Assembly (NCBI RefSeq): GCF_017876435.1
Contig: NZ_JAGIOA010000001.1
Location: 2,356,001 to 2,420,000 of the forward strand
Origin: Microbacterium phyllosphaerae
GTDB lineage: Bacteria > Actinomycetota > Actinomycetes > Actinomycetales > Microbacteriaceae
Direction: 5' to 3'
Length of the DNA stretch: 64,000 nucleotides
Of the stretch, positions 17,476-35,938 are shown piece after piece. Within the stretch, counting starts at the first letter, position 1; each line of letters opens with the position of its first letter. The translations under genes were made by a program, and so were the position numbers. The notes beneath the pieces are model-generated. The model did not search any database and was not told the origin of the DNA. It worked only from the letters and a program-made list of their open reading frames with translations.

Positions 17476-17489
17476 GGGTCGAAGGTCCT
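17476..17489 (-). promoter_or_regulatory. DosR-like operator box 1 (adhP)
   Basis: GGGTCGAAGGTCCT on the plus strand, read by adhP as AGGACCTTCGACCC. The centre is 41.5 bp from a predicted transcription start at 17441, with -10 AAGACT and a 25-nt leader containing AAGGAGGA. Confidence 0.8.
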
Positions 17490-18749: not shown

Positions 18750-18763
18750 GGGCCGAAGGTCCC
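18750..18763 (-). promoter_or_regulatory. DosR-like operator box 2 (small ORF-flavodoxin operon)
   Basis: GGGCCGAAGGTCCC on the plus strand. It predicts transcription from about 18715 with AAACGT as -10, giving a 30-nt leader with a ribosome-binding site for the 39-aa ORF. Confidence 0.8.
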
Positions 18764-18782: not shown

Positions 18783-18796
18783 AGGACCTTGGGCCC
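18783..18796. promoter_or_regulatory. DosR-like operator box 3
   Basis: AGGACCTTGGGCCC, centred 33 bp from box 2. It may be a second upstream site for the flavodoxin operon. Facing the other way, its centre lies 43.5 bp before an ATG at 18833, with GACGTT as a possible -10. Confidence 0.7.
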
Positions 18797-18932: not shown

Positions 18933-19580
18933 TCACGGCCGGGCGCGACCTTCCCACGCTTCCGTTGCAAACACAGCAGCTTGGGTGCGGCGTTGCATGC
19001 CGAGCTTGGCGAGGAGCCCGGAGACGTAGTTCTTGACGGTCTTCTCGGCGAGGCCGAGGTGCTCACCGATCTGACGGTTGGTGAGCCCCTCCGCGATCAG
19101 CGTCAGCGCTTGGCGTTCTCTGAGAGTCAACTCCACCGCTGGCGATCGAGCTTCCGCTACTCGAGCCTCGAGCTTGCGGTGCACGCCATCGGAGACGTCC
19201 GTGGGGATGAGGTTCTCTCCCCGCGCCGCACGATGGATCGAGTCGACGAGGTCCGTTCCGCGGATCGTCTTGAGCACGTATCCGGATGCACCTGCAATCA
19301 CCGCTGCGATGCTCGCAGCGTCGTCGTCGAAGGCTGTCAGGATGAGGCACCGGATCTCGGGGTGGTCGGATCGAATGAGTCGGCACAGATCCACCCCGTT
19401 GCCGTCCGGAAGGTTCACATCGAGGACGACGATGTCCGGAAGCGTCGCTGAGACACGGCCGCGAGTCCCCTGCACCGTGCCGGACTCCCCCACAACCTCG
19501 AGACCCGGTTCCGCGTCGATGATCTGGGCGATGCCGCGGCGAACGATCTCATGATCGTCCACGAGGAAGACCCGGGTCAT
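18933..19580 (-). CDS. devR: DosR/DevR-like NarL-family response regulator
   Basis: Predicted 215 aa. The receiver domain starts MTRVFLVDDHEIVRRG, with phosphoacceptor Asp54 in VVLDVNLPDGNG and conserved Lys104. A LuxR-type HTH near residues 150-212 has the recognition helix LAEKTVKNYVS and the tail KLGMQRRTQAAVFATE. These features and their numbering match mycobacterial DosR closely. It should dimerise on phosphorylation and bind the GGGAC-N4-GNCCC boxes of this region. The open frame begins upstream, but the ATG at 19580 overlaps the kinase stop (ATGA) and gives the expected N terminus. It is cotranscribed with the kinase. Confidence 0.92.
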   Translation of the reverse strand: MTRVFLVDDHEIVRRGIAQIIDAEPGLEVVGESGTVQGTRGRVSATLPDIVVLDVNLPDGNGVDLCRLIRSDHPEIRCLILTAFDDDAASIAAVIAGASGYVLKTIRGTDLVDSIHRAARGENLIPTDVSDGVHRKLEARVAEARSPAVELTLRERQALTLIAEGLTNRQIGEHLGLAEKTVKNYVSGLLAKLGMQRRTQAAVFATEAWEGRARP

Positions 19581-21274
19581 GAGGCTGCCTGCGACGTCGA
19601 TCCGAGCGGCACGCGCCAGCGTACCCGTGTGCCACCTGTGCTTCGCCGCTCGATCTCGCACGTACCACCATGCGCTTGTGCTCGCTTGCGGAGGTTCGCA
19701 GTACCGCTGGACCGCGGTAGTTTTTCGCGAACGCCGACTCCGTCGTCTTCCACGAGAACCGTGACGAGCGACGCTGTGACGGAGACGCTGACCTCCGCGC
19801 TGTCCGCGTGGGCGTGACGAGCCACGTTGCTAAGAGCCTCTCGCACCACCGCGATGACGTCTTCCGCGAGTCTGCCGGTCACCAGCAGATCGACCGGGCC
19901 AGCGAAAGCGATTCGGGGTGGACTCTGGAGCAGCGGCGCGAGTTCATTCGCGATATCGATGAGTCGGTGTCGAACGGATTCGGGGTCAGAGGTCTGAAGA
20001 GTGAAGATTGCCGTACGGAAATCGGCGATCGCAGCGTCGATCTCTGCCACCTGCGCACTAATGGCGACAGCGTGCGCAGGCAATCGTGCGGCAAGCGCCT
20101 GTAACCCTAACCCTGTCCCGAACAGGCGCTGGATGACATTGTCATGGAGATCTCGGGCGATACGAGCGCGCTCTTCGATGAGATCCAACCTCTGGCGATC
20201 AACACGGGCCTGGGCGAGCGCGAGGGCGAGCCCTGCCTGCGCTGCGAATTCCGCAAGGGTGGAAAGGTCCTCGGGCGAAAACCGACGACCACTCTCATTG
20301 CGCGTCACACAGAGCGCACCGACTGGTGCACCGGTGACGATGAGTGGCACGGCCACCGTGGATCCACCCTTGGTTTGCAGCTCGTCCGACAGAATCCCGA
20401 GGATTCCATCGGCTACCACGACACCTCCGCCGGAGATCGCCGCTGAGATCAGGGAGTTACTGGCCGGCACCTCGACCCCCTCAAGAGTTGCGGCGCCGAG
20501 CCCGCGCGCAGTCTCTACGCGGTACTCCCCCGAGAGCGGGTCAGAGACGACGATGCAGACCATGTCGACGTCAACCAAAGTCGCCACGCGTTCGGCAAGA
20601 ACGCCGAACACGTCTCCCGCATCGGGAGACAAGAGTGCAGCATTGATCTCAGCGAGTGCGCCGCTCAGCCGCTGCAGCCTCCGTGACTCCTCGAAGCGTC
20701 GCGCGTTGTCAATCGCGATCGCCGCTGTCGACGCGAGGGCGAGCACGAGCTCCTCGTCCTCTTCCGAAAACGAGCCCGCGGCTGGGTTCGTGAGATACAG
20801 GTTTCCGTAGATTTCGTCTCGTACGCGAATGGGTACCCCGAGAAAGCTGCGCATCGGAGGGTGATGTGCGGGGAACCCGACCGACCGCGAGTCTTCTCCG
20901 AGATCGTCAAGCCGAATGGGATGTTCGCTCTCGATGACTGCCCCAAGGATGCCCAGCCCCTCCGGTAGATGGCCGATCTGGTGGGCCAGTCCCTCCTTCA
21001 TGCCTACATGGATGAATTGCTCGAGACCTCCGTCGCGGTCGATGACGCCGAGCGCGCCGTACTGCGCTTCCACGAGGTCGACGGCTGCTTCCGCGATATG
21101 ACGGAGCACATGCTCCAGTTCGAGGTCCTCCACGACGGCCTGATTCGCGCGCAGAAGGCTTCTCAGTCGTCCCTGATCCGCAAGGACGAGATGGGCACGA
21201 TCCAGCAACTCCCCGATCGTTTTCTCTAGGTCCGCTTGTTTCTGGTCAGGCACTTGGAGGTGATCGTCGGCCAT
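19577..21274 (-). CDS. devS: DevS/DosS-like double-GAF sensor histidine kinase
   Basis: Predicted 565 aa: GAF-A (about 50-195), GAF-B (about 205-355), HisKA_3 dimerisation domain with phosphoacceptor His377 in ARDLHDNVIQRLF, and a HATPase domain to the end. M. tuberculosis DevS binds heme in GAF-A through His149 and uses Tyr171 at the distal side. Here GFPAHHPPM supplies His138, and the Tyr 22 residues later in NLYLT is conserved (Tyr160), with no gap between. Heme-based sensing of O2, NO or CO or redox is inferred. No membrane helix is seen. The ATG at 21274 has GGAAGGGAAA upstream. Operator box 4 suggests autoregulation. Confidence 0.92.
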   Translation of the reverse strand: MADDHLQVPDQKQADLEKTIGELLDRAHLVLADQGRLRSLLRANQAVVEDLELEHVLRHIAEAAVDLVEAQYGALGVIDRDGGLEQFIHVGMKEGLAHQIGHLPEGLGILGAVIESEHPIRLDDLGEDSRSVGFPAHHPPMRSFLGVPIRVRDEIYGNLYLTNPAAGSFSEEDEELVLALASTAAIAIDNARRFEESRRLQRLSGALAEINAALLSPDAGDVFGVLAERVATLVDVDMVCIVVSDPLSGEYRVETARGLGAATLEGVEVPASNSLISAAISGGGVVVADGILGILSDELQTKGGSTVAVPLIVTGAPVGALCVTRNESGRRFSPEDLSTLAEFAAQAGLALALAQARVDRQRLDLIEERARIARDLHDNVIQRLFGTGLGLQALAARLPAHAVAISAQVAEIDAAIADFRTAIFTLQTSDPESVRHRLIDIANELAPLLQSPPRIAFAGPVDLLVTGRLAEDVIAVVREALSNVARHAHADSAEVSVSVTASLVTVLVEDDGVGVREKLPRSSGTANLRKRAQAHGGTCEIERRSTGGTRVRWRVPLGSTSQAAS

Positions 21275-21330
21275 CACATTTCCCTTCCGGCCTCCCGCTG
21301 CTGATGACACTACTCGCACACCGCGCCCGG

Positions 21331-21344
21331 GGGACCTTCGACTC
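21331..21344. promoter_or_regulatory. DosR-like operator box 4 (kinase-regulator operon and USP genes)
   Basis: GGGACCTTCGACTC lies between the divergent kinase and universal stress protein genes. The centre is 63.5 bp from the kinase ATG (22-nt leader predicted) and 43.5 bp from the USP ATG, with CAACAT as a possible -10 on that side. Confidence 0.8.
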
Positions 21345-21380
21345 TGCGCCGCGAGTGAAGCGAGTCGCAACATGGGATGA

Positions 21381-22193
21381 ATGCCCGATCTGATCTGCGA
21401 AGGCGATGCACGCATGCCCGCTCGATATGTACTTGGCGTCGGCGATTCCGACGCGGCTGCCGCAGGACGGTGGGCAGAGTCCCACGCCCGCCGTGATGGC
21501 ATTCCGCTGGTGCGAGTGCACGTCGGTGGTGGCGTTACGGAGCAAACGCCTGCTCACAAGGTCGGCACACAGGAAATGGACATCGTCCATATCGGTGGGC
21601 GGGTTCCAGAAGCGCTCGCTCGCTTCGTGACCGCCGATGACGTTCTGGTCATCGGTACGGGCAAGACCGGCTTCATTCACAGTCGTGTCTTCGGCTCTGT
21701 GAGTCTGCAGATCGCCGCCGAGGCGCGCTGCTCTGTGGCGGTTATCCCGATGATCGATCTACGGTTCCGACGCGGAATCGTCGCCGGCGTGAAGGACGAC
21801 GATCTCATGACTGCTATCATCCGCGCTGCCGCCGGTGAGGCCAGCGCTCGCCAGGAGCCGATCGAGCTCATCCATTCGTTTTTCAGCGGGGTGATTCCTG
21901 CCATGGTCGAAACGCGGGCCACCATCGCGGCTCGTGTCGCTGCCCTGGAGAGCCTGGTTGATGCGGGCACAAGGGTTCGAACGCGCTACACGCAGCGACC
22001 GCCCGCAGAGGCACTGCTCGACGCCTCGCGCAACGCCGCACTCCTCGTCGTAGGGGCAGGGCACCCAAGTGGCGCCGGGCACGCGCTCGGCGCTGTGACG
22101 CACGACGTCCTCGTGAATATCGATGCCCCTGTCCTCGTCGTGCGGCGCACTGCCGCCGACCGTACCTCACCGGAATCGGCCCAGAATTCATGA
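21381..22193 (+). CDS. Tandem universal stress protein
   Basis: Predicted 270 aa with two USP-like halves. The second half carries the cleaner nucleotide-loop pattern (LLVVGAGHPSGAGHALGAVTHDVLVNIDAPVLVVR shape: G-x2-G...VLVVR). The first half is degenerate. An ATG at 21414 (MPARYVLGVGDSD) is an alternative start. The upstream box is placed for a nearly leaderless mRNA from 21381. USPs of this type bind ATP or signal stress, and several belong to the mycobacterial DosR regulon. The stop overlaps the next USP gene by 4 nt. Confidence 0.82.
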   Translation: MPDLICEGDARMPARYVLGVGDSDAAAAGRWAESHARRDGIPLVRVHVGGGVTEQTPAHKVGTQEMDIVHIGGRVPEALARFVTADDVLVIGTGKTGFIHSRVFGSVSLQIAAEARCSVAVIPMIDLRFRRGIVAGVKDDDLMTAIIRAAAGEASARQEPIELIHSFFSGVIPAMVETRATIAARVAALESLVDAGTRVRTRYTQRPPAEALLDASRNAALLVVGAGHPSGAGHALGAVTHDVLVNIDAPVLVVRRTAADRTSPESAQNS

Positions 22194-23409: not shown

Positions 23410-23509
23410 GGTGGGTCTCCTGAGCATCGGGTCCTCGGATCAGCCGCCGACGTGTTCTCGTCGGCGGTCTAGACGCGTCCAGTCAATCGCCAACGCGCCC
23501 CTGTGAGCA

Positions 23510-23523
23510 GGGTCGAAAGTCCC
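23510..23523 (+). promoter_or_regulatory. DosR-like operator box 5 (second response regulator)
   Basis: GGGTCGAAAGTCCC, the copy closest to the mycobacterial form (GGGACTTTCGACCC on the other strand). Transcription near 23558-23559 with TACTCT as -10 would leave a leader of about 32 nt containing GGAGGACGAC. It may also serve the divergent PPOX gene. Confidence 0.8.
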
Positions 23524-23589
23524 GAGGGCGAGTCGCCGCGGAGTTGTACTCTGTGGTTACCCGTCAGTGTGAGGGGATCGGAGGACGAC

Positions 23590-24243
23590 ATGTTCCGGAT
23601 CGTTCTCGTAGACGATCATGAGATGGTGCGGCGCGGGATCGCGGATCTCCTCGAGACGCAGTCTGATCTCAGCGTCGTCGGTGAAGCAGCAACGGTTCAC
23701 GATGCACGAGAGGTCGTCGCCGCGACTCTGCCGGATGTGGCGGTCTTGGACGTGCATCTCCCCGATGGCAGTGGCATCGATCTGTGTCGCGAGATCCGCC
23801 AAACGCACCCACAGGTGCAGTGTCTGATATTCACGGCATTCGATGACGACGATGCCTTGTTCGCCGCCGTTCTCGGAGACGCGGCCGGCTACCTGATGAA
23901 GACGCTCCGAACCGATGAACTACTCCGCTCGATCCGTGCTGTCGCGCAGGGCCAGCGACTGATCAAACCCTCGATGGTGTGCCATGTCACTGGCACCGTC
24001 GATCGTGCCGACACTGCTGATCCTCGCTTCGGTGCTCTGAGCATGCGCGAGAAGGAGGTCCTCGCCCTCATCGCTGAGGGGCTCTCCAACCGGCAGATCG
24101 GCGACCGCCTCGGTCTCGCGGAGAAAACCGTCAAGAACTACGTCTCATCTCTGTTGAACAAACTGGGTCTCGAGCGACGCACACAGGCGGCGGTCCTGCA
24201 GGCCGAAAGAGCGAGCCGCGCGTTCGATCATCGCGCCCCGTAG
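23590..24243 (+). CDS. Second DosR/DevR-like response regulator (orphan)
   Basis: Predicted 217 aa. It starts MFRIVLVDDHEMVRRG with phosphoacceptor Asp54 and Lys104, and has a LuxR-type HTH with LAEKTVKNYVSSLLNKLGLE. The recognition helix is the same as in the first DosR-like regulator, so both should read the same boxes. No kinase gene is adjacent; the DevS-like kinase 2.3 kb away is the obvious donor, or cross-talk may occur. The ATG at 23590 with GGAGGACGAC before it is chosen over the longer frame from 23503, because the operator lies inside that extension. Confidence 0.9.
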   Translation: MFRIVLVDDHEMVRRGIADLLETQSDLSVVGEAATVHDAREVVAATLPDVAVLDVHLPDGSGIDLCREIRQTHPQVQCLIFTAFDDDDALFAAVLGDAAGYLMKTLRTDELLRSIRAVAQGQRLIKPSMVCHVTGTVDRADTADPRFGALSMREKEVLALIAEGLSNRQIGDRLGLAEKTVKNYVSSLLNKLGLERRTQAAVLQAERASRAFDHRAP

Positions 24244-24256
24244 GTCCTTCCCTCTG

Positions 24257-24928
24257 TTACCGGGCGCGAACGTCGATGCGGTTGTCCACGTATGTCACGT
24301 ATGGTGAGGCCCAGGCCGCGTCTGCCGCTTGACTCTTCTCCGGCCAGGAGCGCACGGTGCCGGTGAGGATCGCCGTGGTCCCTTCAATCGCGACGGAGAC
24401 CGCGTTCGCATCCACGGCCGCGTTCCGGAGTATGGCACCATGAATGCGGTCTTCTGCATCCGCTGCCGATGGTCGTGCACTCAACGTGATCAGGCTGTTG
24501 ACATTCATGACCCCCCTGAGGTGTTGTACTGCGCGCTTCGCTGACCGGCGTTGATGGTCCCATTCGACCTCCCCCATGAGCGTGACCTCTCCCTCTTCGA
24601 TCACCGCTTTGACCGTGATCGGCACGTTCGCGGCGGCGTGGAGCGCGTGATCGACTTCCCTGGCCACGTCGGTGTCCGTGATCTGCGCGCCGTCCATCGG
24701 CCGCACGACGATGTCGTCGACCAGGGTGCTCACGCCACGGACGCGGAGAGCCGCGTGCTTCACCGCCAGGCGCTCCGAGTAGGTGTTCACCTCACCCGAC
24801 AGGGCAACCGCGCCATCCGTCACAGCCACTCCGATCGCCGCGTCATCGAGACCCGGTGTCCATTGCAGCTCCTGAGAGACAGCCCTTTGGACATCTCGAT
24901 CGTCGATGTGTTCTGTCGTGTTCATCAT
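24257..24928 (-). CDS. Triple-BON-domain protein
   Basis: Predicted 223 aa with three BON repeats, each built on a D-x-x-I/V...G-x-V-x-L-x-G-x-V pattern ([36 protein letters not shown]). BON domains bind phospholipid or peptidoglycan-associated partners; no signal peptide is seen here, so a cytoplasmic or membrane-surface role is likely. Tandem ATGs sit on the phosphoketolase stop (ATGATGA), with AAAGGAACAGG before them, so it is coupled to that gene. It is a clear paralogue of the BON protein at 31328-31999. Confidence 0.88.
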
Positions 24929-27450
24929 CCTGTTCCTTTCGACCGCTCTTCGTCGCGGGCCTCACCACTTGGCTGTGGCTCTGCCTCCGGCTCCGGCTCG
25001 CGCCATTCCCAGTTCCTGATCTCAGGCGCGTCTTCTCCGTGGAGCCGCGTGTAGGCCCGCGCTCGCACGCGCGAGTCCTGCATCTCCTGACGCAGGGCGG
25101 CCTCCCGGGGTCCCAGGCCGGGCACATGGTCGATCACATCCATCACGAGGTGGAAGCGGTCGAGGTCGTTCATCATCACCATGTCGAACGGGGTGGTCGT
25201 CGTTCCTTCTTCGATGTACCCGCGGACGTGGAGCTGGTCGTGGCCGCGTCGCCGGTACGTCAGACGATGGATCAGCCAGGGGTAGCCGTGGTAGGCGAAG
25301 ATCACGGGGCTGTCGGTGGTGAAGATCGCGTCGTATTCTCGATCTCCGAGACCATGCGGGTGCTCCCCCTCGGTCTGCAGGCGCATGAGGTCGACGACGT
25401 TCACCACACGCACCTTCAAGGAGGGAAGTCGCCGGCGAAGGATGGATGACGCCGCGAGGACCTCCAAGGTCGGTACGTCGCCCGCTGCGGCGAGCACCAC
25501 ATCGGGTTCCTCGCCGGCACGTTCGGAACCCGCCCAGTCGAAGATGCCGAGCCCACGGGTGCAGTGCTCGATCGCCGCATCCATCCCGAGCCAGTTCGGC
25601 GCGGGCTGCTTTCCTGCGACGACGACGTTGACGTAGCCACGTGAGCGCAGACAGTGGTCGTAGGTCGACAGGAGGGTGTTCGCATCGAACGGGAGGTACA
25701 CGCGCACGACGTCGGCCTTCTTGTTGACGACATGGTCGATGAATCCCGGGTCCTGGTGCGAGAGTCCGTTGTGATCCTGCCGCCAGACGTGTGAGCTGAG
25801 CAGGTAGTTCAGGGAGGAGATCGGCCGCCTCCAGGGGATGCTCCGGGTGGTCTTCAACCACTTGGCGTGCTGATTGAACATCGAGTCCACGATGTGGATG
25901 AACGCCTCGTACGAGTTGAGGATGCCGTGGCGTCCCGTCAGCAGGTACCCCTCGAGCCAGCCCTGGCACTGATGTTCACTGAGCATCTCCACGACCCTGC
26001 CGGAGCGTGCCAGATGATTGTCGGCATCCATCGGCAGCGACTCCGCGTTCCACTGTTTGTCTGTCACCTCGAAGACGGCATCAAGTCGATTGGATGCTGT
26101 CTCGTCGGGACCGAAGATGCGGAAGTTCGCGGGGTTGGCCGTGATCACGTCACGAAGCCAGCCTCCGAGGACGCGGGTGGCCTCGCTCACCGTGGCGCCG
26201 GGGCTGGGCACGTCGACGCCGTACTCGCGGAAGTCCGGGAGTCGCAGTTCTTTCCTCAGCAGCCCGCCGTTGGCCACAGGGTTCGCACTCATACGGAGCT
26301 CTCCGACTGGACCGAGCGCCGTCACCCACTCAGCCACTGCACCGTTCTGATCGAAGAGCTCTTCCGGCCGGTACGACAGCAGCCACGAGCGAAGCAGCGC
26401 TGTGTGCGCTTCAGTGTCACGCGCGTCACGGAGAGGCACCTGGTGTGAACGCCAGTTGTTCTCCGCCGGATGTCCGTCGATCTCGCGCGGACATGTCCAC
26501 CCTTTCGGCGTGCGCAGGATGATCATCGGCCATGCCGGCCGGGTGCGGAGAACGCCGGCCGTGGCATCCGCTTTGATCTGTGCGATGTGGTCGAGCACGT
26601 CATCCAGCACGATCGCGAAACGGCGATGTACGTCCATCGGGTCCTCACCATCGAACCCGCCGGAGACGAGATACGGAGTGTGCCCGTACCCACGCATGAG
26701 GGAGAGCAGCTCCTTCTCGGGGATACGTGCGAGCACAGTCGGGTTGGCGATCTTGTACCCGTTCAGGTGGAGAATCGGAAGAACGACGCCGTCGTGAAGA
26801 GGATCGAGGAACTTGTTCCCGTGCCAGCTCGTCGCCAGCGGCCCCGTCTCCGCCTCGCCGTCTCCGACGACTGCAGCGACGAGAAGGCCAGGGTTGTCGA
26901 ACGCGGCGCCGTACGCGTGAGAGAGGGAATAGCCCAGTTCCCCACCCTCGTGGATCGACCCGGGCGTCTCCGGCGCCACATGGCTCGGGATCCCTCCGGG
27001 GAACGAGAACTGGCGGAAGAGACGGCGCAGTCCGTCCTCGGAGCGGTCGATGCTGTTGTAGACCTCGCTGTAGGTGCCGTCCAAGTAGGCGTTCGCGACC
27101 ATCCCCGGTCCCCCATGTCCTGGCCCGGCGATGTAGATCGTGTGGAGAGAGCGTTCCCGGATCACTCGGTTGAGGTGGGCGTAGATGAGGTTCAGCCCCG
27201 GGGTCGTTCCCCAGTGCCCGAGGAGTCGAGGCTTGATGTGCTCAGGTCTGAGAGGCTCGCGGAGAAGCGGGTTGTCGAGAAGGTAGATCTGCCCCACGGA
27301 CAGGTAGTTCGCTGCCCGCCACCAGGCGTTCAGACCCTCCAGGGTGGACGCAGAAGGCTGGTCTCCGGTTCCTAGCGGCCAAGAGGATGTGGTCGCGACG
27401 TCGACCGCGATCTCTGTCTGCGCGGGAGAGGAAGTCCGAGATGCGTCCAT
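24925..27450 (-). CDS. xfp: Xylulose-5-phosphate/fructose-6-phosphate phosphoketolase
   Basis: Predicted 841 aa from the ATG at 27450. The thiamine-diphosphate motif [19 protein letters not shown], an early HWGTTPGLN, and GPGHGG are all characteristic. It splits xylulose-5-P or fructose-6-P with phosphate into acetyl phosphate plus glyceraldehyde-3-P or erythrose-4-P, giving ATP via acetate kinase without oxygen. Box 6 is centred 41.5 bp from this ATG with GAGACT as -10 and no ribosome-binding site, so a leaderless mRNA is likely. The frame extends to 27609 across both operator boxes, so the longer start is rejected. BON gene coupled downstream. Confidence 0.95.
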
Positions 27451-27484
27451 GCACGCAGTCTCGCCCGGGGACAGTCGCGGGATA

Positions 27485-27498
27485 GAGCCGAAGGTCCC
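27485..27498 (-). promoter_or_regulatory. DosR-like operator box 6 (phosphoketolase)
   Basis: GAGCCGAAGGTCCC on the plus strand. Its centre is exactly 41.5 bp from the phosphoketolase ATG; the minus-strand hexamer at -12 to -7 is GAGACT. Confidence 0.85.
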
Positions 27499-27529
27499 TC
27501 GCCCGTGTCGATGCAGCCCACGCGATGAC

Positions 27530-27543
27530 GGGACCTTGGTCCC
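27530..27543. promoter_or_regulatory. DosR-like operator box 7 (perfect palindrome)
   Basis: GGGACCTTGGTCCC lies between the divergent phosphoketolase and PPOX genes. On the PPOX side it predicts transcription near 27578 with CACGAT as -10 and a 30-nt leader. It may also act as an upstream site (-86.5) for phosphoketolase. Confidence 0.85.
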
Positions 27544-27607
27544 CCGGGTCGCTGAGGCCCCCGTGCACGATGAGAGCGAGACAGGAACCTCTCCGGACGG
27601 GAGAATC

Positions 27608-28030
27608 ATGACCGAGATCGAACGCTCGCCGACACGACAGCTGACCGAGGACGAGTGCTGGGACCGTCTCGCCCGAGCCCCCTACGGACGGATCGCCTGC
27701 GGTGCGGCGGGAGAGATCGACATCTTCCCGATCAACCACAAGACCGACGGTCGAACGATCATCTTTCGAACCTCAGCAGGCACGAAGTTGCTCGAGCTGA
27801 CCATCCGCGCGGCCGTCGCCTTCGAGATCGACGGTTACGACGAGCATGAAGCCTTCAGCGTGGTGGTGAAAGGGACCGCCCAGGAATTCGACCGCGACGC
27901 CGACGTGCTCGCGGCAGAACGACTGGGTGTGCACCCATGGGCCCCGGAAGAGAAAGACCGCTGGGTACGGATCGATGCATCCGAGGTTCGCGGCAGGGTC
28001 TTCGATCTTGAGGCGCAGAGCGCGCCCTGA
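27608..28030 (+). CDS. Pyridoxamine 5'-phosphate oxidase-family protein
   Basis: Predicted 140 aa. A compact PPOX split barrel: [20 protein letters not shown], then [19 protein letters not shown], then [21 protein letters not shown] and VRGRVFDL. Cofactor (FMN, F420 or heme) cannot be told from sequence alone. The ATG at 27608 has GGGAGAATC upstream; the track of the frame further 5' crosses the operator region and is not used. It is divergent from phosphoketolase and shares its two boxes. It is related to the PPOX proteins at 22.8 and 33.6 kb. Confidence 0.9.
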
Positions 28031-28085
28031 GCCCTCGAGGGCGAGGGTTCCGCCGCACAGTAGAACCGACGAAGTTCTGCTCCGT

Positions 28086-28099
28086 GTGACCTTTGGCCC
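28086..28099 (+). promoter_or_regulatory. DosR-like operator box 8 (USP-ATPase operon)
   Basis: GTGACCTTTGGCCC, centred exactly 41.5 bp before the USP ATG at 28134, with GATCGT at -12 to -7 and no clear ribosome-binding site: a leaderless mRNA is predicted. Confidence 0.8.
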
Positions 28100-28133
28100 A
28101 GTGGCCTGAAGCGAAAAGCAGGATCGTGAAGCT

Positions 28134-28613
28134 ATGTCGAACACACACACGCACCACATCGTCGTCGGCGTGGACGGATCCGATTCCTCTATCGACGCCC
28201 TCCGCTACGCAGCACGTCTGGGGAAGGCGCTGAAGGAGCCTCTGCATGTCGTCACGACCTGGACGGCTCCCCCGATCGATCCCTACTTGGCTATCGAGTG
28301 GTCACCCTCTGAGTTCGCCCGCGAAGCTCTGGATGAATCGATCCGGGGAGCATTCGCCGGCAACCCACCACACGACCTCACCAGCGAAGTCCTGCTCGGG
28401 TCCGCCGCGCGAACCCTGATCGGCCTCAGCAACTCGGCATCGATGCTGGTCCTCGGCAGCCGCGGGCACGGCGGCTTCGTCGGGCTCCTCCTCGGATCGG
28501 TCAGCGCTGCCTGCGCGGAACACGCTCACTGCCCCGTCCTGATCGTGCACACGAAGAAGGCGGTCGACAGCGAGCCCTCTCAGTCATCTTCGGGCGAAGA
28601 CCTGAACCGTTGA
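28134..28613 (+). CDS. Universal stress protein
   Basis: Predicted 159 aa, single USP domain with the ATP-binding loop pattern (MLVLGSRGHGGFVGLLLGSV and CPVLIVHT). It begins HHIVVGVDGSDSSIDALRYA. The start codon is at the predicted transcription start of box 8. The last codon overlaps the TTG start of the P-type ATPase gene (TTGA), so a stress protein and a metal pump are cotranscribed, as with ctpF in mycobacterial dormancy regulons (a different ATPase class). Confidence 0.93.
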   Translation: MSNTHTHHIVVGVDGSDSSIDALRYAARLGKALKEPLHVVTTWTAPPIDPYLAIEWSPSEFAREALDESIRGAFAGNPPHDLTSEVLLGSAARTLIGLSNSASMLVLGSRGHGGFVGLLLGSVSAACAEHAHCPVLIVHTKKAVDSEPSQSSSGEDLNR

Positions 28614-30454
28614 GACCAGTCCTGTTGCGGTACCCGATCATCACCCTCACGGTTCTCGTCTTCGTCGGAGTCGTCACGGCGCTGGTGATGGGAGCCGAAA
28701 GCACCGGTCATTGGGCGGCCACGATCTACGTCGCCGCATTCATCAGCTGGACACTGGTACGAATGGTGCGGGATGTGCTCCGAGGGCACGTAGGTCTCGA
28801 CATTCTGGCGCTCGTGGCGATGATCGCCACGTTGGCCGTGGGCGAGTACATAGCCTCGCTGATCATCGTGTTGATGCTGTCGGGGGGCGAGGCGCTGGAG
28901 GACTTCGCCGGACGACGAGCAAAGCGCGATCTCTCCGCACTTCTGGACCGCTCGCCTCGCACCGCGCACGTCCTGGAGTATGCGGACGCGGACGCTGGCG
29001 AAGCCATTCATGATGTTCCTGTCGACGAGGTCAAGATCGGGGACGTGCTTCTCATCCGGCCCTCAGAGATCGTGCCGGTCGACGGGTCTCTTCTCACGGA
29101 GACCGGATCCTTCGACGAGTCGTCGCTGACAGGCGAGAGCATGCCGGTCACTCGTGAGGCGGGCGGAGAGGTGCTGTCCGGGGCGATCAATGGAAACCGG
29201 GCGGTGCGTATCCGAGCAATACGGACCAGCGAGGACAGCCAGTATCAACAGATCGTCGCTCTCGTGCGTGCAGCGGAAGACTCCCATGCGCCCGTGGTGA
29301 GGCTGGCCGACCGATTCGCCATCCCGTTCACCGCAGTCTCGCTCGTTCTCGCCGGGGCCGCGTGGGCGTTGTCGAGTGATCCGACACGGTTCGCAGAGGT
29401 CCTGGTCCTGGCAACGCCCTGTCCACTCCTGATCGCCGCTCCGGTCGCCTTCCTCGGTGGGCTCTCCCGGGCCGCGAAGGCCGGCGTGATCATGAAGGGC
29501 GGCGCCGTCATCGAGCAGATCGCCCGCGTGCGTTCCGCCGCCTTCGACAAGACGGGAACCCTCACCCAGGGCCGCCCACGACTCATCGACGTCCGACCCG
29601 GCGAAGGCTTCGATGCGGATGAGCTCCTGATGCTCGCCGCCTCCGCAGAGGAGTACTCCTCCCATGTTCTCGCCGACGGTATCCGTCGCGCTGCGGAGGA
29701 TCGGGGCCTCGCGCTGCGCACCGCCAGCGCCGCACGTGAAGAAGCGACCAACGGCGTCGTGGCGACGATCGACGGGCGCACCGTGACCGTCGGGAAACCC
29801 GCCTACGTCACCGCTATCGCACCCGATACCCCCAGGGCCACGCTCGACGTCGGCGAAGCCGCCGCATACGTGGCCGTGGACGGACGATTCGCCGGCGTTC
29901 TGGTACTTGCCGATGACGCGCGTCCCGAAGCCGCGTCCGTGGTGTCCTGGCTCCGGAGTCACGGCATCGAACGGATCATCATGCTGACAGGCGACGTCCG
30001 GTCGACGGCGGAAGCCGTGGGCCATCGGATCGGCGTCGACGACATTCACGCGGAACTCCTCCCGCCCGAGAAAGTACGGCTCGCTCAAGACCTGCAGCCA
30101 CGCCCGGTGATGATGATCGGCGACGGAGTCAACGATGCCCCCGTGCTCGCCGCCGCCGACATCGGCGTGGCGATGGGCGCGAAAGGCGCGACGGCGGCCG
30201 GCGATGCCGCCGACATCGTGATCCTCGTGGATTCGCTGTCGAAGGTCGTGGACGCCGTATCCATCGGCCGACACACGCTGCGGGTCGCGCTCACTGCGAT
30301 CTGGATCGGTATCGGGCTGAGTCTCGCGCTCATGATCGTGGCGATGACCGGGATCATCCCCGCAGTCGCTGGCGCGGTCACGCAGGAGTTGGTAGATCTG
30401 GCCACGATCCTCTACGCATTGCGGGCGTTGCGGGGCCCACGGGATCTCGCTTAG
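28610..30454 (+). CDS. Heavy-metal P1B-type ATPase with TPC motif
   Basis: Predicted 614 aa from a TTG overlapping the USP stop. P-type hallmarks: TGES actuator loop, DKTGTLTQG phosphorylation site, and GDGVNDAPVL hinge. The transmembrane metal motif is TPC (LATPCPLLIAAPVAF), not CPC or SPC; TPC ATPases are assigned to the P1B-5 group, linked to nickel or iron in the few studied cases. The usual HP dipeptide of the nucleotide domain is replaced (YSSHVLADGIRRA). No N-terminal metal-binding domain is present. The metal is not predictable with confidence. Confidence 0.88.
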   Translation: MRPVLLRYPIITLTVLVFVGVVTALVMGAESTGHWAATIYVAAFISWTLVRMVRDVLRGHVGLDILALVAMIATLAVGEYIASLIIVLMLSGGEALEDFAGRRAKRDLSALLDRSPRTAHVLEYADADAGEAIHDVPVDEVKIGDVLLIRPSEIVPVDGSLLTETGSFDESSLTGESMPVTREAGGEVLSGAINGNRAVRIRAIRTSEDSQYQQIVALVRAAEDSHAPVVRLADRFAIPFTAVSLVLAGAAWALSSDPTRFAEVLVLATPCPLLIAAPVAFLGGLSRAAKAGVIMKGGAVIEQIARVRSAAFDKTGTLTQGRPRLIDVRPGEGFDADELLMLAASAEEYSSHVLADGIRRAAEDRGLALRTASAAREEATNGVVATIDGRTVTVGKPAYVTAIAPDTPRATLDVGEAAAYVAVDGRFAGVLVLADDARPEAASVVSWLRSHGIERIIMLTGDVRSTAEAVGHRIGVDDIHAELLPPEKVRLAQDLQPRPVMMIGDGVNDAPVLAAADIGVAMGAKGATAAGDAADIVILVDSLSKVVDAVSIGRHTLRVALTAIWIGIGLSLALMIVAMTGIIPAVAGAVTQELVDLATILYALRALRGPRDLA

Positions 30455-31290
30455 CGGACCACGACGGTGGCGGTCGCGAGCCGGGCGAGGACTTCCTCGC
30501 TGGTGGACCCGAGAAGAAAACGAGCGATCGCCCCGCGCCCGTGAGACCCCACCACCACCAGTCGAGCTTTCGCTGCCCGATCGCTGATCGTCCGGCCCGG
30601 ACTGCCCCTCTCCACCACGCGATGCACGACGAGGTCCGGATACTGTTGCCCGATCCCGGCCAGCGCGATGGCAAGTGTCTCTTCTGACGCCTGCTGCATC
30701 CCTGACAGGTAGGTCGACGGGTAGCCGTGCATACCCACAGGCAGCGGAACGGTCGTCCATGTCGTCACAGTCGTGAGGACGTCGCCACCTCTGTCCGCCT
30801 CCTCGGCAGCGAAATCGAGCGCCCGCTCGGAATCAACTGATCCGTCGATGCCCACGACAACGCCGCTGCGGTCGGTCAGATCGATGTCGGGCACCACCGC
30901 GACCGGACTATGAGCGCCCGCCGCTATGCGGACACCGTGCAGACCGCGTCGGTGCCCTTTCGACGGACCGCGATGGTCGCTTCCGATGACGAGGAGGTCG
31001 CCGACCATCGAGGCATCGATGAGTTCGCCGACCGGATCGCCGCGCCCCACACGCGTGTCCACGGTCAGTCCGCGCGACTGCAACCGAGTCGCCTCACGCG
31101 CAAGCATCGTCTCCGTCAACGAGAGAGCCTCCCGGAGCATCTTCCCCTCCCCGACCGCGCCTACAGCACCACCGACGATCGATATGAGGGTGAGTCTGCC
31201 GCTGCGGTCATAGGCGCGACGTGCCGCCCACTCGACCGCCTCACGCGAAGCGTGAGTGTCGACGACTCCGACCAGGATGCTCTCCGGCAT
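30451..31290 (-). CDS. Tandem universal stress protein
   Basis: Predicted 279 aa with two USP domains: SILVGVVDTHASREAVEWAARRA ... DLLVIGSDHRGPSKGHRRGLHGVRIAAGAHSPVAVVP, and GVVVGIDGSVDSERALDFAA ... LVVVGSHGRGAIARFLLGS. The second has a complete ATP-binding loop. It lies 37 nt after the BON gene on the same strand and is probably in one transcript with it, driven by box 9. The stop overlaps the P-type ATPase stop convergently. Confidence 0.92.
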   Translation of the reverse strand: MPESILVGVVDTHASREAVEWAARRAYDRSGRLTLISIVGGAVGAVGEGKMLREALSLTETMLAREATRLQSRGLTVDTRVGRGDPVGELIDASMVGDLLVIGSDHRGPSKGHRRGLHGVRIAAGAHSPVAVVPDIDLTDRSGVVVGIDGSVDSERALDFAAEEADRGGDVLTTVTTWTTVPLPVGMHGYPSTYLSGMQQASEETLAIALAGIGQQYPDLVVHRVVERGSPGRTISDRAAKARLVVVGSHGRGAIARFLLGSTSEEVLARLATATVVVR

Positions 31291-31327
31291 GGGATCCTAC
31301 TTTCCGCTCAAGTGCGCGCTCTCGACA

Positions 31328-31999
31328 TCAATCCGACTGGACCCGCACATTGTTCTCGACCTCAGTGATGTGCGGAGAGGCCCACGCGGCACGACCTGCC
31401 TGCTCCTTCTCTGCCCACGACCGCACGTGTCCGGACAGGGTGGCCCTGTTCCCGATGACGGTGACGACGATGTGGTTGGCGTCGAGCTGCGCGTTGCGGA
31501 CAAGCGCGTTCCTGATTCGCGCTTTCGCGTCGGTGGCAGAGACGCGAGCGAACAGCGTCACCCTGTTGTCGACCCGATGCACCCCGCGCAGATGCTGCAC
31601 GGTTCGCTGCGCGGCCTGGCGTTGGAAGTCCCAGAGAACCTCGCCGGTGAGAATCACGTTGTGGTCCGACACCTCAGCTCTGACTGTGTCGGGGACATTG
31701 TCCGCCCACTGCAGCGCACGTCGCACCTCCCGGGCGACGTCCGTGTCCGTGATCGTGATCGAGGCCTTCGGGTGCACGGTCAATGCGTCGACAACCGTCG
31801 ACACGCCCCTCACACGCCGTGCCGCACGCTTGGCAGCGAGACGCTCCGAATGCTGGTCGACCTCACCAGTGAGGATCACAGCGCCGTCCTCGACGGCAAC
31901 GCCGATTCCGGCGGCGTCCACGTCCGGGGTCCAGTCGAGTTCGTCCTGAACGGCGGTCTGGATGTCGTGGTCGCTGCGCGCCACGGTGGGAGTGCTCAT
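31328..31999 (-). CDS. Triple-BON-domain protein (paralogue)
   Basis: Predicted 223 aa, same length and layout as the BON protein at 24257-24928 and clearly related along its length (DVDAAGIGVAVEDGAVILTGEV against [41 protein letters not shown] against [20 protein letters not shown]). Three BON domains and no signal peptide. AGAGGACGAGCA precedes the ATG. Box 9 predicts transcription near 32037-32038 (-10 AAGTCT), a leader of about 39 nt. First gene of a BON-USP pair. Confidence 0.88.
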   Translation of the reverse strand: MSTPTVARSDHDIQTAVQDELDWTPDVDAAGIGVAVEDGAVILTGEVDQHSERLAAKRAARRVRGVSTVVDALTVHPKASITITDTDVAREVRRALQWADNVPDTVRAEVSDHNVILTGEVLWDFQRQAAQRTVQHLRGVHRVDNRVTLFARVSATDAKARIRNALVRNAQLDANHIVVTVIGNRATLSGHVRSWAEKEQAGRAAWASPHITEVENNVRVQSD

Positions 32000-32072
32000 T
32001 GCTCGTCCTCTCTTCGGTGCGGGCGATATCGCGCGCTATCCACAGACTTCCCGACTTCGCGAACCCCATGCA

Positions 32073-32086
32073 GGGTCATTGGTCCC
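32073..32086 (-). promoter_or_regulatory. DosR-like operator box 9 (BON-USP operon)
   Basis: GGGTCATTGGTCCC. It predicts transcription of the BON gene near 32037 with AAGTCT as -10. Confidence 0.75.
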
Positions 32087-32107
32087 GCGTAGCGCTGGAT
32101 CAGAGGC

Positions 32108-32134
32108 GACCCATGACCGTCTCGGTCATGGGTC
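32108..32134. repeat. 12-bp perfect inverted repeat between two DosR-like boxes
   Basis: GACCCATGACCG, a TCT loop, then CGGTCATGGGTC. It sits between boxes 9 and 10 in a divergent promoter, has no T-run, and its arms contain GACC/GGTC half-sites. An extra operator or a bidirectional insulator hairpin is possible. Confidence 0.6.
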
Positions 32135-32143
32135 AAGGGTGAA

Positions 32144-32157
32144 AGGACTTCCGACCC
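32144..32157 (+). promoter_or_regulatory. DosR-like operator box 10 (67-aa membrane protein)
   Basis: AGGACTTCCGACCC, a weaker match, but centred exactly 41.5 bp before the ATG at 32192 with GAAGCT at -12 to -7. The spacing supports it more than the sequence does. Confidence 0.7.
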
Positions 32158-32191
32158 AGGCGCTGCGCCCGGGCTGTGTGAAGCTCCGTCC

Positions 32192-32395
32192 ATGCACGAA
32201 CAACCGAGTCGAATCAGGGTCGTTGAGAAAGCCGGCCCGTGGGGGTTCTTCTTCCTGCTCTGCTACATCGGTGCTGCCATCTATTTCGTTTCGAACTCCA
32301 GCGGGGGTTTCTGGGACGTCGCTCTCGGCCTGCTTCAGGCAGCGGTCTGGCCCGTCTACGTGACCTTCCACGTGCTCGGCATCCTCGGGGCGTGA
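32192..32395 (+). CDS. 67-aa hypothetical membrane protein
   Basis: Short ORF with two hydrophobic segments (WGFFFLLCYIGAAIYFVS and an amphipathic-to-hydrophobic stretch ending VYVTFHVLGILG) and a charged N terminus (MHEQPSRIRVVEKAG). No family is recognised with certainty; similar tiny two-helix proteins occur widely in actinobacteria. The ATG has no ribosome-binding site, but it lies exactly at the transcription start predicted from box 10, so a leaderless mRNA is likely. The operator and codon use support it as real. Confidence 0.75.
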   Translation: MHEQPSRIRVVEKAGPWGFFFLLCYIGAAIYFVSNSSGGFWDVALGLLQAAVWPVYVTFHVLGILGA

Positions 32396-32470
32396 CGGCA
32401 CACCCGGTGTGACGATGCAGATGGTGGGAGAAGACCTGTTCGTTCCGAGTGCACCGCTCTCTCTGTCGAG

Positions 32471-32584
32471 GTTGTCCATCCGTCGCCGCGGACCTGGATG
32501 CATCACATCGAGCTCCGCTCGGTCACCGATGTCGATGAGGAACTTCTTCGATGGGTCGTGCAGGCCTACCAGGAAGCCGCCTAG
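32471..32584 (+). pseudogene. C-terminal remnant of a DUF5655-like protein
   Basis: The frame ending TAG at 32582-32584 reads PSPRTWMHHIELRSVTDVD, then EELLRWVVQAYQEAA. This resembles the closing segment of DUF5655-type domains. No start codon or upstream part of the domain is present in this frame; the preceding bases look coding only in other frames. It is a decayed fragment between two live genes. The family label is from memory and moderate. Confidence 0.5.
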
Positions 32585-32619
32585 CTGGCTCCGCACTCGC
32601 CCTCGTTCACACTGTCGGT

Positions 32620-32633
32620 GGGACCTTCGGTCC
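32620..32633 (+). promoter_or_regulatory. DosR-like operator box 11 (membrane protein)
   Basis: GGGACCTTCGGTCC, centred exactly 41.5 bp before the GTG at 32668, with CATGCT at -12 to -7. It argues against the ATG at 32641, which would be too near the box. Confidence 0.8.
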
Positions 32634-32667
32634 GGAAGTCATGCTCCCTGCGGGCCATGCTGTCTGG

Positions 32668-33537
32668 GTGAGGCAGTCAGAGACGATCAGCTTTCTCGGC
32701 AAGGTCACAGTGGCCCATGTCGTCACCTACTTCGTGATGGGCGCGGCCGCAGCGGCGATGCTCGATTACGAGTCGGTGTTCGCAGCACCGATCGTGCGTG
32801 ACTACATGAAGGATTTCGGATCCGTCGCCGTGCTGATCGGGCCGCTGGTGCAGGTTCTCCGTGGTCTTATCATCGCCGCCGTGCTTCTGCCGTTCCGCTC
32901 TGCTCTCATACCGCGCTACGGGTGGCTTCGCCTGTGGATGCTGCTCATCGGGATCGGCATCCTCTCGACCGCAGCTGCGGCACCATCATCGGTCGAAGGA
33001 ATCATCTACACCAGACTTCCTCTGTGGTACCACTTGATTGGCTTGCCCGAGATGCTCGGACAGACCCTCCTCTTCAGCATCGCTACTGCGCTGATAGCCC
33101 GCCACCCGACGGGAGTGCTCGCCGCACTCCCGCCGATCTTCGAGCGCCTCCTGCGCGCACTCGTGGCGGCATCTCTGGCGTTCGCCGGCTATGCGGTCGT
33201 GTCGGTCCTCTTCGCTCTGTCCGCAGGCGCTGAGATCGACGCCGGGGAAAGCCTCACCCTCAAGGTCCAGGGCCTGTTCATCGCGCCGTTTCTCATCAAC
33301 GGGATCATCGCATTCGTGGCGACTCACGGCTTGACTGCGCGGGCCCGCCTTGTCGCTGCCCTCGTCTCATTCTCCGCCGGTGTTGTCGTGATCGCCCTCT
33401 ATCAAGCAGTAGTGAGCGGCGGCACGAACCTCCCTTACGCGCTGATCGCACCCGTTCTTCCCGCGGCCATCCTGTGGGTGCTGATGCCGCGAGAGTCGAG
33501 GCGGAGTGGCCCCGAGCCTCTGGCCGACGTTAGATAG
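32668..33537 (+). CDS. Hypothetical polytopic membrane protein
   Basis: Predicted 289 aa from a GTG (N terminus MRQSETISFLGKVTVAHVV). About eight hydrophobic helices are spread along the length, with no soluble domain and no recognised family. The frame is open from 32551, and an ATG at 32641 is possible, but that codon is only 8 bp after box 11. The GTG is exactly where the box geometry puts the transcription start, so a leaderless start is preferred. The gene is likely a regulon member of unknown transport or sensing function. Confidence 0.75.
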   Translation: MRQSETISFLGKVTVAHVVTYFVMGAAAAAMLDYESVFAAPIVRDYMKDFGSVAVLIGPLVQVLRGLIIAAVLLPFRSALIPRYGWLRLWMLLIGIGILSTAAAAPSSVEGIIYTRLPLWYHLIGLPEMLGQTLLFSIATALIARHPTGVLAALPPIFERLLRALVAASLAFAGYAVVSVLFALSAGAEIDAGESLTLKVQGLFIAPFLINGIIAFVATHGLTARARLVAALVSFSAGVVVIALYQAVVSGGTNLPYALIAPVLPAAILWVLMPRESRRSGPEPLADVR

Positions 33538-33559
33538 CGTCGGGAAGCCGCTTCGGAGA

Positions 33560-34063
33560 TCACGGAGTCAACAGCTGCCGCTCGTGAACGGTTCCGCGCT
33601 GCCGCGCCTCCGATGACGGCTCTCGATCCGACGGGTCAGCGTCGACGGCGAAGATCCGACCCTTGATGCTGATCGGTACGAACGTCACCCAGCGCCGGTC
33701 AGCGGGCGGAGACGGCTGCGGTGCATAGCCGTCGAGCCGGAGAGCCTCCGATCCTGGCGCGATGTCCTCTGCGTATCCGATCATGGACACGGTGAACGCC
33801 TCGCGCGTGTTGTATCCATCGATCTGAACGGACATCAGGCTGTGAGCCAGGAAGTCTCTTGAGCCATTGCCGGAGGCGGCGCAGAACGTGAGGCGACCGT
33901 CCTCTATTACGTGAGATACCGGCGTGGCCTCTCGACCAGTCACCACCTGCGCCGCGATACGGACGTCGGCGTCCGCGAATCTGTTCCAGCACTCGTCCTC
34001 AGCCATCTCTCTGCACTGTGCAGGGTCTCCCCACGGGGATCCGGAGCGGACTGGTTTCACCAT
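33560..34063 (-). CDS. Pyridoxamine 5'-phosphate oxidase-family protein
   Basis: Predicted 167 aa. PPOX pattern: MAEDECWNRFADADVRIAAQ, ATPVSHVIEDGRLTFCAASG, LMSVQIDGYNTREAFTVSMIG, and IKGRIFAVDADP. It differs from the other two by a longer basic tail. The frame is open to 34765, but box 12 is centred exactly 41.5 bp from the ATG at 34063, with CAGCGT at -12 to -7. That start has no ribosome-binding site and is likely leaderless. Cofactor unknown. Confidence 0.85.
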   Translation of the reverse strand: MVKPVRSGSPWGDPAQCREMAEDECWNRFADADVRIAAQVVTGREATPVSHVIEDGRLTFCAASGNGSRDFLAHSLMSVQIDGYNTREAFTVSMIGYAEDIAPGSEALRLDGYAPQPSPPADRRWVTFVPISIKGRIFAVDADPSDREPSSEARQRGTVHERQLLTP

Positions 34064-34097
34064 GGTTCCACGCTGGTCCTTCCGACGCGGTGGCGTA

Positions 34098-34111
34098 GAG
34101 TCCAACGTCCC
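34098..34111 (-). promoter_or_regulatory. DosR-like operator box 12 (PPOX gene)
   Basis: GAGTCCAACGTCCC on the plus strand (GGGACGTTGGACTC for the gene). I found it by looking 41.5 bp upstream of the PPOX ATG, so its match there is a partial test of the rule. Confidence 0.7.
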
Positions 34112-34647: not shown

Positions 34648-34661
34648 GGGACCTTGGTCCC
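34648..34661 (+). promoter_or_regulatory. DosR-like operator box 13 (perfect palindrome, no gene at +1)
   Basis: GGGACCTTGGTCCC, identical to box 7. The rule predicts transcription at 34696 on the plus strand with TAGCCT at -12 to -7, the best -10 in the set. The minus side has no matching hexamer. Confidence 0.8.
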
Positions 34662-35468: not shown

Positions 35469-35482
35469 AGGACCTTCGGCCC
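35469..35482 (+). promoter_or_regulatory. DosR-like operator box 14 (TM2 protein)
   Basis: AGGACCTTCGGCCC. It predicts transcription at 35517 with CACGCT as -10, leaving a 14-nt leader that holds the ribosome-binding site of the TM2 gene. Confidence 0.8.
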
Positions 35483-35530: not shown

Positions 35531-35938
35531 ATGTCCATGAACCTCCCACGAGTCGAGTCACACGACGTCGGCGCACAACCGGCATCAGCGCAAGCGTCGG
35601 ACCGGTCCTTCATCGCCACCTGGATGTTCGCCTGGCTTCTCGGCTTCCTCGGAGTCGACCGGTTCTATCTCGGCAAGACCGGCACAGGAATATTGAAGCT
35701 CCTAACCGCCGGCGGCTTCGGGATCTGGTGGCTGATCGATCTGATCTTGACGCTCGCCGGGGTGCAACGCGACAAGGCGGGACGCTTGCTCCCGGACTTC
35801 GACGAACACAAGACGATCGCGTGGATCATCACCGCTGCAGGGTTCGGACTCTGGCTTGTCGTGGCGGCGGTCTCCGGCATCTTCGAGCGGATGCCAGACC
35901 AGTTCTGGCCGATGATGCCGTGGTGGTACGCGCCCTGA
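35531..35938 (+). CDS. TM2-domain membrane protein
   Basis: Predicted 135 aa. The TM2 domain is clear: [20 protein letters not shown] with [13 protein letters not shown] and WWLIDLIL, the paired helices joined by the DRFY motif. A third hydrophobic helix follows ([21 protein letters not shown]), and the tail is aromatic. Function of bacterial TM2 proteins is unknown. AAAGGAGTAATC precedes the ATG. It is the last gene with a DosR-like box, which sets the right edge of the regulon island. Confidence 0.9.

Follow-up and report, generated by a model that had tools for sequence, protein, structure and literature searches.

Here we analysed box-to-start geometry at candidate DosR-dependent promoters in a 64,000-nt stretch of the Microbacterium phyllosphaerae genome (NZ_JAGIOA010000001.1, positions 2,356,001-2,420,000 of the forward strand), called the window below; all coordinates are positions in it. 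Pfam and PDB sequence searches identified an island with universal stress proteins, phosphoketolase, a P-type ATPase, and BON-domain and PPOX proteins. The island also encodes a DosR/DevR orthologue (18933..19661, minus strand; PDB 3c3w DevR, E 3.9e-65; probable start 19580), a GAF-GAF histidine kinase resembling DosS by Pfam (19577..21502, minus strand; true start probably downstream of 21502) and a second DosR paralogue, RR2 (23503..24243, plus strand; PDB 3c3w, E 3.1e-56; probable start 23590). Structure 3c3w is the top match for both regulators, and both contain the recognition-helix letters TVKNYVS, which in this exact form are absent from some relatives' regulators (for example at loci L006 and L030). 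Despite these identical letters, RR2 and the kinase-linked DosR fall in separate tree groups. The GAF domain of the kinase matches DosT/DevS structures (best E 5.6e-49), with HHPPMR in common, and is predicted to bind heme; the named loci that match the kinase best are mostly from Microbacterium. With an orthologous regulator and GAF kinase, the stretch resembles a dormancy-gene island under DosR-type control, predicted to be induced by hypoxia or nitric oxide (NO).

A preliminary description of this DNA had placed five start codons exactly 41.5 bp from an operator centre, and both the sequence and our box scans give this distance for all five. We use register for the distance in base pairs from the centre of a DosR-type box to the start codon, or to the predicted +1. 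The box is GGGACCTTCGRCYCT-like and polar, and its orientation matches gene direction for the promoters given in this paper. The phosphoketolase box (27485..27498, minus strand, centre 27491.5) scores 22.4 bits on a position weight matrix and is followed by the -10 hexamer GAGACT (27457..27462) and the ATG at 27450 of an 841-aa protein (24925..27450; Pfam XFP_N/XFP/XFP_C). The universal stress protein (28134..28613, plus strand; Pfam Usp) opens with the ATG at 28134, downstream of a 16.3-bit box (28086..28099, centre 28092.5) and GATCGT (28122..28127). A 67-aa membrane protein (32192..32395, plus strand; ATG at 32192) has a weak box (32144..32157, centre 32150.5) and GAAGCT (32180..32185); at 11.8 bits this box is under our 12-bit threshold and was therefore left out of the site counts. 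A 289-aa membrane protein (32668..33537, plus strand) has a 15.6-bit box (32620..32633, centre 32626.5) and CATGCT (32656..32661), and its start at 32668 is GTG, the only one of the five that is not ATG. Finally, a 167-aa protein (33560..34063, minus strand; ATG at 34063) has a 19.8-bit box (34098..34111, centre 34104.5) and CAGCGT (34070..34075). The hexamers were read directly from the sequence letters, and all five genes are predicted to be leaderless. For the last gene the start-to-box distance stands, while its earlier label as a PPOX gene is weak: the protein has no Pfam match at 1e-3, and although it shows 27-36% identity to PPOX-like genes, it reaches only 27% with the PPOX gene at 27608. 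We refer to it as PPOX-like.

The two other features attributed to these starts also held. A hexamer of the form NANNNT occupies -12 to -7 in all five; since this form occurs at 3.2% of island positions, the chance that all five would show it at one set distance is about 3.5e-8. As had also been claimed, none of the five has a good ribosome-binding site, with predicted duplexes to the anti-Shine-Dalgarno sequence of -1.2 to -4.4 kcal/mol. The same calculation gives -9.7, -10.1 and -12.4 kcal/mol for three leadered genes of the island.

Box-to-start distances among relatives

We trained a 20-bp matrix on 79 DosS-bearing loci and the window, with downstream sequence excluded. It replaced a noisy hand-made box score, which gave 352 sites for the motif and 290 for the reversed motif. 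At 11 bits in 80 sequences the matrix found 369 boxes of the GGGACNNNNGNCCC type ahead of target genes, and the reversed motif gave 72. Distances were then counted for distinct sites at 12 bits, to ATG codons that open at least 50 codons. Among 337 sites, ATG occurs 18, 31 and 15 times at 41.5, 42.5 and 43.5, and once and not at all at 44.5 and 45.5. Without the window the three counts are 15, 31 and 13, with a mean of 3.4 and a highest value of 11 elsewhere. In a second set of 140 sites absent from training they are 21, 7 and 1 (elsewhere mean 1.5, highest 7); the loci of this set are homologues of window genes or islands, some of them from training genomes, so that it offers separate sites and not a random sample. 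Collapsed to protein families, again without the window, the counts become 13, 16 and 6 (elsewhere mean 3.7, highest 9). Families with an ATG at 41.5-43.5 number 23 in all, of which at least two are apparently spurious frames.

Two controls accompany these counts. The reversed motif has 14 ATG codons at 41.5 with repeats and 11 without, and collapsed to families it gives 2, 1 and 1 at the three distances (mean about 1, highest 4). On the opposite side of the true boxes we counted 12, 8 and 2. At 41.5 and 42.5, respectively, 11 and 4 of these came from the 182 boxes with a score on the reverse strand too, and 1 and 4 from the 295 others; because 11 of the 12 at 41.5 belong to boxes scoring on both strands, this peak is what divergent promoters would be expected to produce.

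The -10 element keeps to a narrow range of distances from the box, and the start codon moves with the -10 element. A -10 pair, that is, the A and the T of the hexamer, has its A at 30.5-32.5 from the box centre at 296 of 477 sites (62%), compared with 4-11% at eight other offsets. Such a position would set the promoter-proximal box over -35, as in the DosR regulon. Viewed per start codon, the -10 A precedes the ATG by 11-12 nt in 78 of the 93 cases at 41.5-43.5, and one start has a pair only elsewhere. In the first set, the distances of the -10 A and the ATG combine as 30.5/41.5 (n=15), 31.5/42.5 (n=20), 31.5/43.5 (n=9) and 32.5/43.5 (n=4). Off this line are 30.5/42.5 (n=2), 31.5/41.5 (n=1) and 33.5/42.5 (n=2), and 13 have no pair. 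The same four combinations occur 20, 6, 2 and 1 times in the second set, here with GTG starts included; 29.5/41.5 and 33.5/42.5 occur once each, and three have no pair. Among sites with a -10 pair, a start codon follows 11-12 nt after the -10 A in 52/195 (27%) in the DosS neighbourhoods, 30/88 (34%) in the second set and 6/13 in the window.

Ribosome-binding potential differs between the two kinds of start. Anti-Shine-Dalgarno duplexes of -6 kcal/mol or stronger occur in 12.9% of 93 leaderless candidates and 12.1% of 1760 random positions, compared with 54.5% of 297 leadered starts. A second Shine-Dalgarno measure agrees, at 25% of 64 leaderless, 70% of 233 leadered and 26% of random positions.

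We also scanned 366 genomes of the genus for box, -10 and ATG together without using the matrix; 45 of the genomes gave a total of 77 matches, this window accounting for two. The matches fall at registers 40.5 (n=2), 41.5 (n=42), 42.5 (n=28), 43.5 (n=4) and 44.5 (n=1); across these 366 genomes there were none at the other four allowed registers, and the reversed pattern gave none. When the gap from the -10 element to the ATG was left free (198 genomes), it was 6 nt in 29 and 7 nt in 9 of 67 matches, out of 19 allowed values. Genomes G218, G219, G050, G151 and G349 share a nearly identical stretch in which a GGGACCTTSGGCCC box is accompanied by a TGGTCTGACCA palindrome and by an ATG at 42.5; this may be a conserved promoter of another regulator.

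Start codons are frequent in GC-rich DNA, the starts could be chosen freely, and related genomes can inflate the count at any single distance, so the agreement might have been put down to chance. This explanation can be considered refuted by the second site set, the collapse to families, the opposite-side control and the genus-wide scan with its silent control, and the preliminary statement that such agreement is unlikely by chance stands. A closer alternative keeps the same DosR class II promoters and gives them tiny leaders of 1-3 nt in place of a +1 on the start codon. In part of the material the -10 A and the ATG are indeed 12 nt apart and not 11 (the 31.5/43.5 combination in both sets and the 7-nt gaps of the free scan), and the universal stress protein gene at 21381 is of this type: its box (21331..21344, plus strand, 21.4 bits) has the -10 A at 31.5 and the ATG at 43.5. 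However, the modal spacing of 11 nt from the -10 A, or 6 nt after its T, corresponds to the usual +1, and all five genes have it, which leaves tiny leaders possible but doubtful.

Homologues of the five genes were compared at identity cut-offs of 60% (phosphoketolase), 40% (universal stress protein, 67-aa and 289-aa proteins) and 30% (PPOX-like protein), with this genome included; the counts that follow refer to the homologues listed at these cut-offs. A box with an in-frame start at 41.5-43.5 precedes 8 of 39 phosphoketolase genes (box only in 5) and 17 of 36 universal stress protein genes (box only in 1). For the 67-aa protein, 5 of 16 have a box and a start at 41.5 and 5 have no box; the homologues at L116, L117 and L121 have a stronger box at the identical distance. 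Of five 289-aa homologues, three have box and start, one has no box and one has a box only. Those at L085 (ATG at 42.5) and L086 (ATG at 41.5) start within about one residue of the window GTG. For the PPOX-like protein the combination is present in 4 of 18, and 7 have no box. In the PPOX-like relative at L094 (G159:C25, about 198735-199059) the frame is broken by stops, the box is kept, and the -10 element and ATG are both shifted by 1.

These comparisons bear on the corrected gene starts that the preliminary description proposed: homologues back those of phosphoketolase and the 289-aa protein. They also bear on the idea that the boxes are real and translation begins elsewhere, upstream in frame or downstream with a Shine-Dalgarno sequence, so that the ATG at +1 is incidental. 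Longer open frames do extend upstream through the boxes of 27450, 32668 and 34063. These frames, however, would translate the operator; in addition, the two 289-aa homologues agree on the start, starts shift together with the -10 element in orthologues, and the peak spans many families. We consider a start elsewhere very improbable.

Register, lineage and regulator clade

Microbacterium has 32 ATG starts at 41.5 and 10 at 42.5, and the other genera sampled have 7 and 28 together. The 41.5 register is thus mainly a feature of Microbacterium, chiefly where the second DosR type exists. The two classes also differ within the box region. Among 42.5-class sites, 133 of 162 have T at +7.5 from the box centre, which is position -35 in that register; among 41.5-class sites, 28 of 96 do. 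For Microbacterium alone the counts are 32/49 and 18/75 (p 6e-6 by sites, with kinship ignored).

A midpoint-rooted tree of 57 regulators splits into two main groups; the kinase-linked DosR belongs to A and RR2 to B. Sites at 41.5 make up 2 of 53 in loci with A only (16 loci), 23 of 34 in Microbacterium loci with B only (9 loci) and 25 of 42 in loci with both (6 loci; the remaining 17 sites are at the other register), in a classification that may overlook a second regulator, since the loci span about 20 kb. In B-only loci of other genera the fraction is 16 of 60 (14 loci), and 9 of the 16 come from Lacisediminihabitans. One arrangement that these sequences may suggest, and that we put forward with low confidence, is that two old DosR clades use registers 1 bp apart: A would act at -42.5 with T at -35 and B (RR2), in Microbacterium, at -41.5, and an island with two regulators would sort its genes into two sub-regulons. 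Three observations count against it. In B-only Microbacterium loci T at +7.5 is rare in both classes (6/23 at 41.5 and 2/9 at 42.5), so that this base may follow the regulator rather than the register. Leifsonia holds clade B and yet uses 42.5. On the tree, 9 changes are needed to account for the register label, compared with 12.7 for shuffled labels, which speaks against a simple link between clade and register.

A related proposal is that the boxes of the island are bound mainly by RR2 and not by the kinase-adjacent DosR. RR2 has the same recognition-helix letters, and the near absence of 41.5 from loci where only the other clade was seen points in this direction. On the other hand, both regulators may bind, because those letters are common to both, and register and clade are confounded with genus, besides the number of changes on the tree; mainly RR2 is accordingly an assignment we regard as rather doubtful. 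A simple rule, in which the presence of two paralogues would lead to 41.5, did not hold: where two or more were seen, the -10 A lies at 30.5 (n=19), 31.5 (n=16) and 32.5 (n=4). Clade fits register better than paralogue number does, as a lead and not a result.

Other boxes in the window and genome

For the remaining regulated genes the preliminary description had proposed the same -41.5 rule with short leaders containing ribosome-binding sites. The leaders with Shine-Dalgarno sequences are indeed present, and the uniform distance is not, since registers 42.5 and 43.5 also occur. Among the 16 oriented sites of the window at 12 bits, the -10 element lies in the 42.5 register at 21337.5 and 32079.5 and in the 43.5 register at 18789.5 (plus) and 34654.5 (minus); no -10 pair was found in this group at 23516.5, 27536.5 and 34549.5, all on the minus strand.

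Between the divergent phosphoketolase and PPOX genes, positions 27485-27543 hold two boxes 45 bp apart. The outer one (27530..27543, centre 27536.5), on the upstream side of the phosphoketolase box, forms a perfect GGGAC/GTCCC palindrome; it scores 17.9 bits on the plus and 15.8 bits on the minus strand, has its -10 A/T pair at 30.5/34.5 on the plus strand, where it faces the PPOX gene at 27608, and may serve both divergent genes. This PPOX gene (27608..28030, plus strand; Pfam Pyridox_ox_2) has a leader of about 30 nt with a Shine-Dalgarno sequence (duplex -9.7). The BON-domain gene (31328-31999) is leadered as well (-10.1) and has a 19.1-bit box (32073..32086, minus strand) in the 42.5 register, with the -10 A at 31.5. 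The TM2 gene at 35531 has a short leader (-12.4) and a 15.5-bit box (35469..35482, plus strand) with the -10 A at 30.5.

Further boxes lie on both sides of these genes. At 17476..17489 (minus strand, 20.7 bits) a box with a -10 element precedes a gene that starts near 17419 and whose leader has the Shine-Dalgarno-like AAGGAGG, and the box at 18750..18763 (minus strand, 22.6 bits) also has a -10 element and is leadered. Box 18783..18796 (plus strand, centre 18789.5, 17.0 bits) has its -10 element shifted by two and a 67-codon open reading frame at 18833 (plus strand) with the ATG at 43.5; this frame may not be a gene, because a relative at L157 matches only about the first 20 residues displayed. 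The box facing the PPOX gene at 22807-23427 (23510..23523, minus strand, 23.3 bits) is the one at 23516.5 that lacks a -10 pair. Box 34648..34661 (plus strand, 19.9 bits) has the -10 hexamer TAGCCT and no start codon near +1. In the genome outside the window, none of the strict-pattern matches (5 of 12; L177, L178 and L184-L186) has a -10 pair at 29.5-32.5; weaker boxes were not sought. In relatives, leaderless candidates at DosR sites in L027, L031, L032, L052, L101 and L102 have N-terminal letters that resemble those of acetate kinase and of pyruvate phosphate dikinase, which may point to a broader fermentative regulon.

Interpretation and comparison with known systems

Taken together, the five genes very probably give leaderless mRNAs from DosR-dependent promoters with class II geometry. 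The class II activation of leaderless mRNAs put forward in the preliminary description thus finds support at the level of sequence, namely in the box over -35, the -10 element, a start codon at the predicted +1, the lack of a strong Shine-Dalgarno sequence and recurrence in 23 families. In the mechanism we propose, a phosphorylated DosR dimer would bind, on induction by low oxygen or NO, to the box whose centre is at -41.5 and which stands where a -35 element is missing. RNA polymerase, presumably with the housekeeping sigma factor, would then use a weak -10 element of the form NANNNT, with no T at -12. Transcription would start on the first letter of the start codon (A or G), with a leader of 0 or at most 1-2 nt; because +1 would coincide with the start codon, the mRNA would be leaderless and translated without a Shine-Dalgarno sequence. 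For the wider group of promoters, -10 spacing suggests a start codon 0-3 nt from the transcription start.

Several observations weigh against this interpretation or narrow it. The phrase "exactly 41.5" holds for the five genes and not for all DosR promoters, because distances vary by 1-2 bp, and outside Microbacterium, in the other genera sampled, 42.5 is commoner than 41.5. Of the 93 ATG starts at 41.5-43.5, 14 have no -10 pair. The counts take in related genomes, and the 11 ATG codons at 41.5 in the reversed control comprise 8 near-identical Cryobacterium stretches and 3 inside phosphoketolase loci. Likewise, some of the genus-wide matches come from the window itself or from close relatives, and 5 of the 28 at 42.5 are the near-identical copies with the TGGTCTGACCA palindrome, which may belong to another regulator. 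No box lies near 26 of 39 phosphoketolase and 18 of 36 universal stress protein homologues listed. A box without an in-frame start at 41.5-43.5 is present in 6 of 16 67-aa and 7 of 18 PPOX-like orthologues listed, which points to leaders or other spacings there; these two genes are less well supported by relatives, the PPOX-like gene least.

In practice, the position of the operator becomes a guide to where transcription and translation begin in environmental actinobacteria, and several gene starts were corrected with it. More generally, about 50 bp can hold an activator operator, a -10 element and a start codon in a fixed arrangement. Lineages, and perhaps paralogues, differ by 1 bp in register, and this shift makes it possible to test directly how strict the phasing between a NarL-type activator and RNA polymerase must be.

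In class II CRP promoters of Escherichia coli the activator is centred at -41.5, in place of the -35 element. By sequence, the Microbacterium promoters share this activator position and the replacement of -35, and differ in that the activator is of the unrelated NarL type. For mycobacteria, Chauhan and colleagues are said to have put the DosR box at -42.5 in 2011, whereas the spacing in the Microbacterium window is 41.5. The resemblance to the Mycobacterium tuberculosis DevR/DosR regulon otherwise extends to an orthologous response regulator with a GAF kinase and to the promoter-proximal box, which overlaps -35 there as well (excerpts of PMC3029386 and PMC5360333). PMC5360333 (same excerpt) draws a parallel between one such promoter and class II CRP promoters. 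In Table 2 of that paper 7 of 7 DosR -10 hexamers open with A after C or G, and in 4 of the 7 the fourth base after this A is T, the A/T pattern seen here. The portions available of PMC3029386, PMC5360333, PMC6448022, PMC3898074 and PMC4117774 contain no statement on leaderless DosR genes, and among the matches listed by a search of one literature library there were no leaderless DosR promoters and no Microbacteriaceae start maps.

OsdR of Streptomyces coelicolor, like the window, combines a DosR-type regulator with a palindromic box near universal stress protein genes; its box, AGGGCCGATCGGCCCT, is different, and the excerpt of PMC5069765 that describes it analyses neither start sites nor leaderless mRNAs. 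In Actinobacteria, leaderless genes make up more than 20%, with a TA-like signal about 10 bp before the start codon (PMC3160421, in excerpt), and in Mycobacterium marinum 38-40% of primary start sites are leaderless and leaders of 0-3 nt work (PMC8022548, in excerpt). Set against these published fractions, the 27-34% found here would make DosR promoters about as leaderless as others. As in other actinobacterial leaderless mRNAs, a -10-type signal lies about 10 bp before the start; the window differs by adding an activator operator at a fixed distance from that start. The layout is real, recurs in relatives and is ordinary in kind, being one version of a known scheme.

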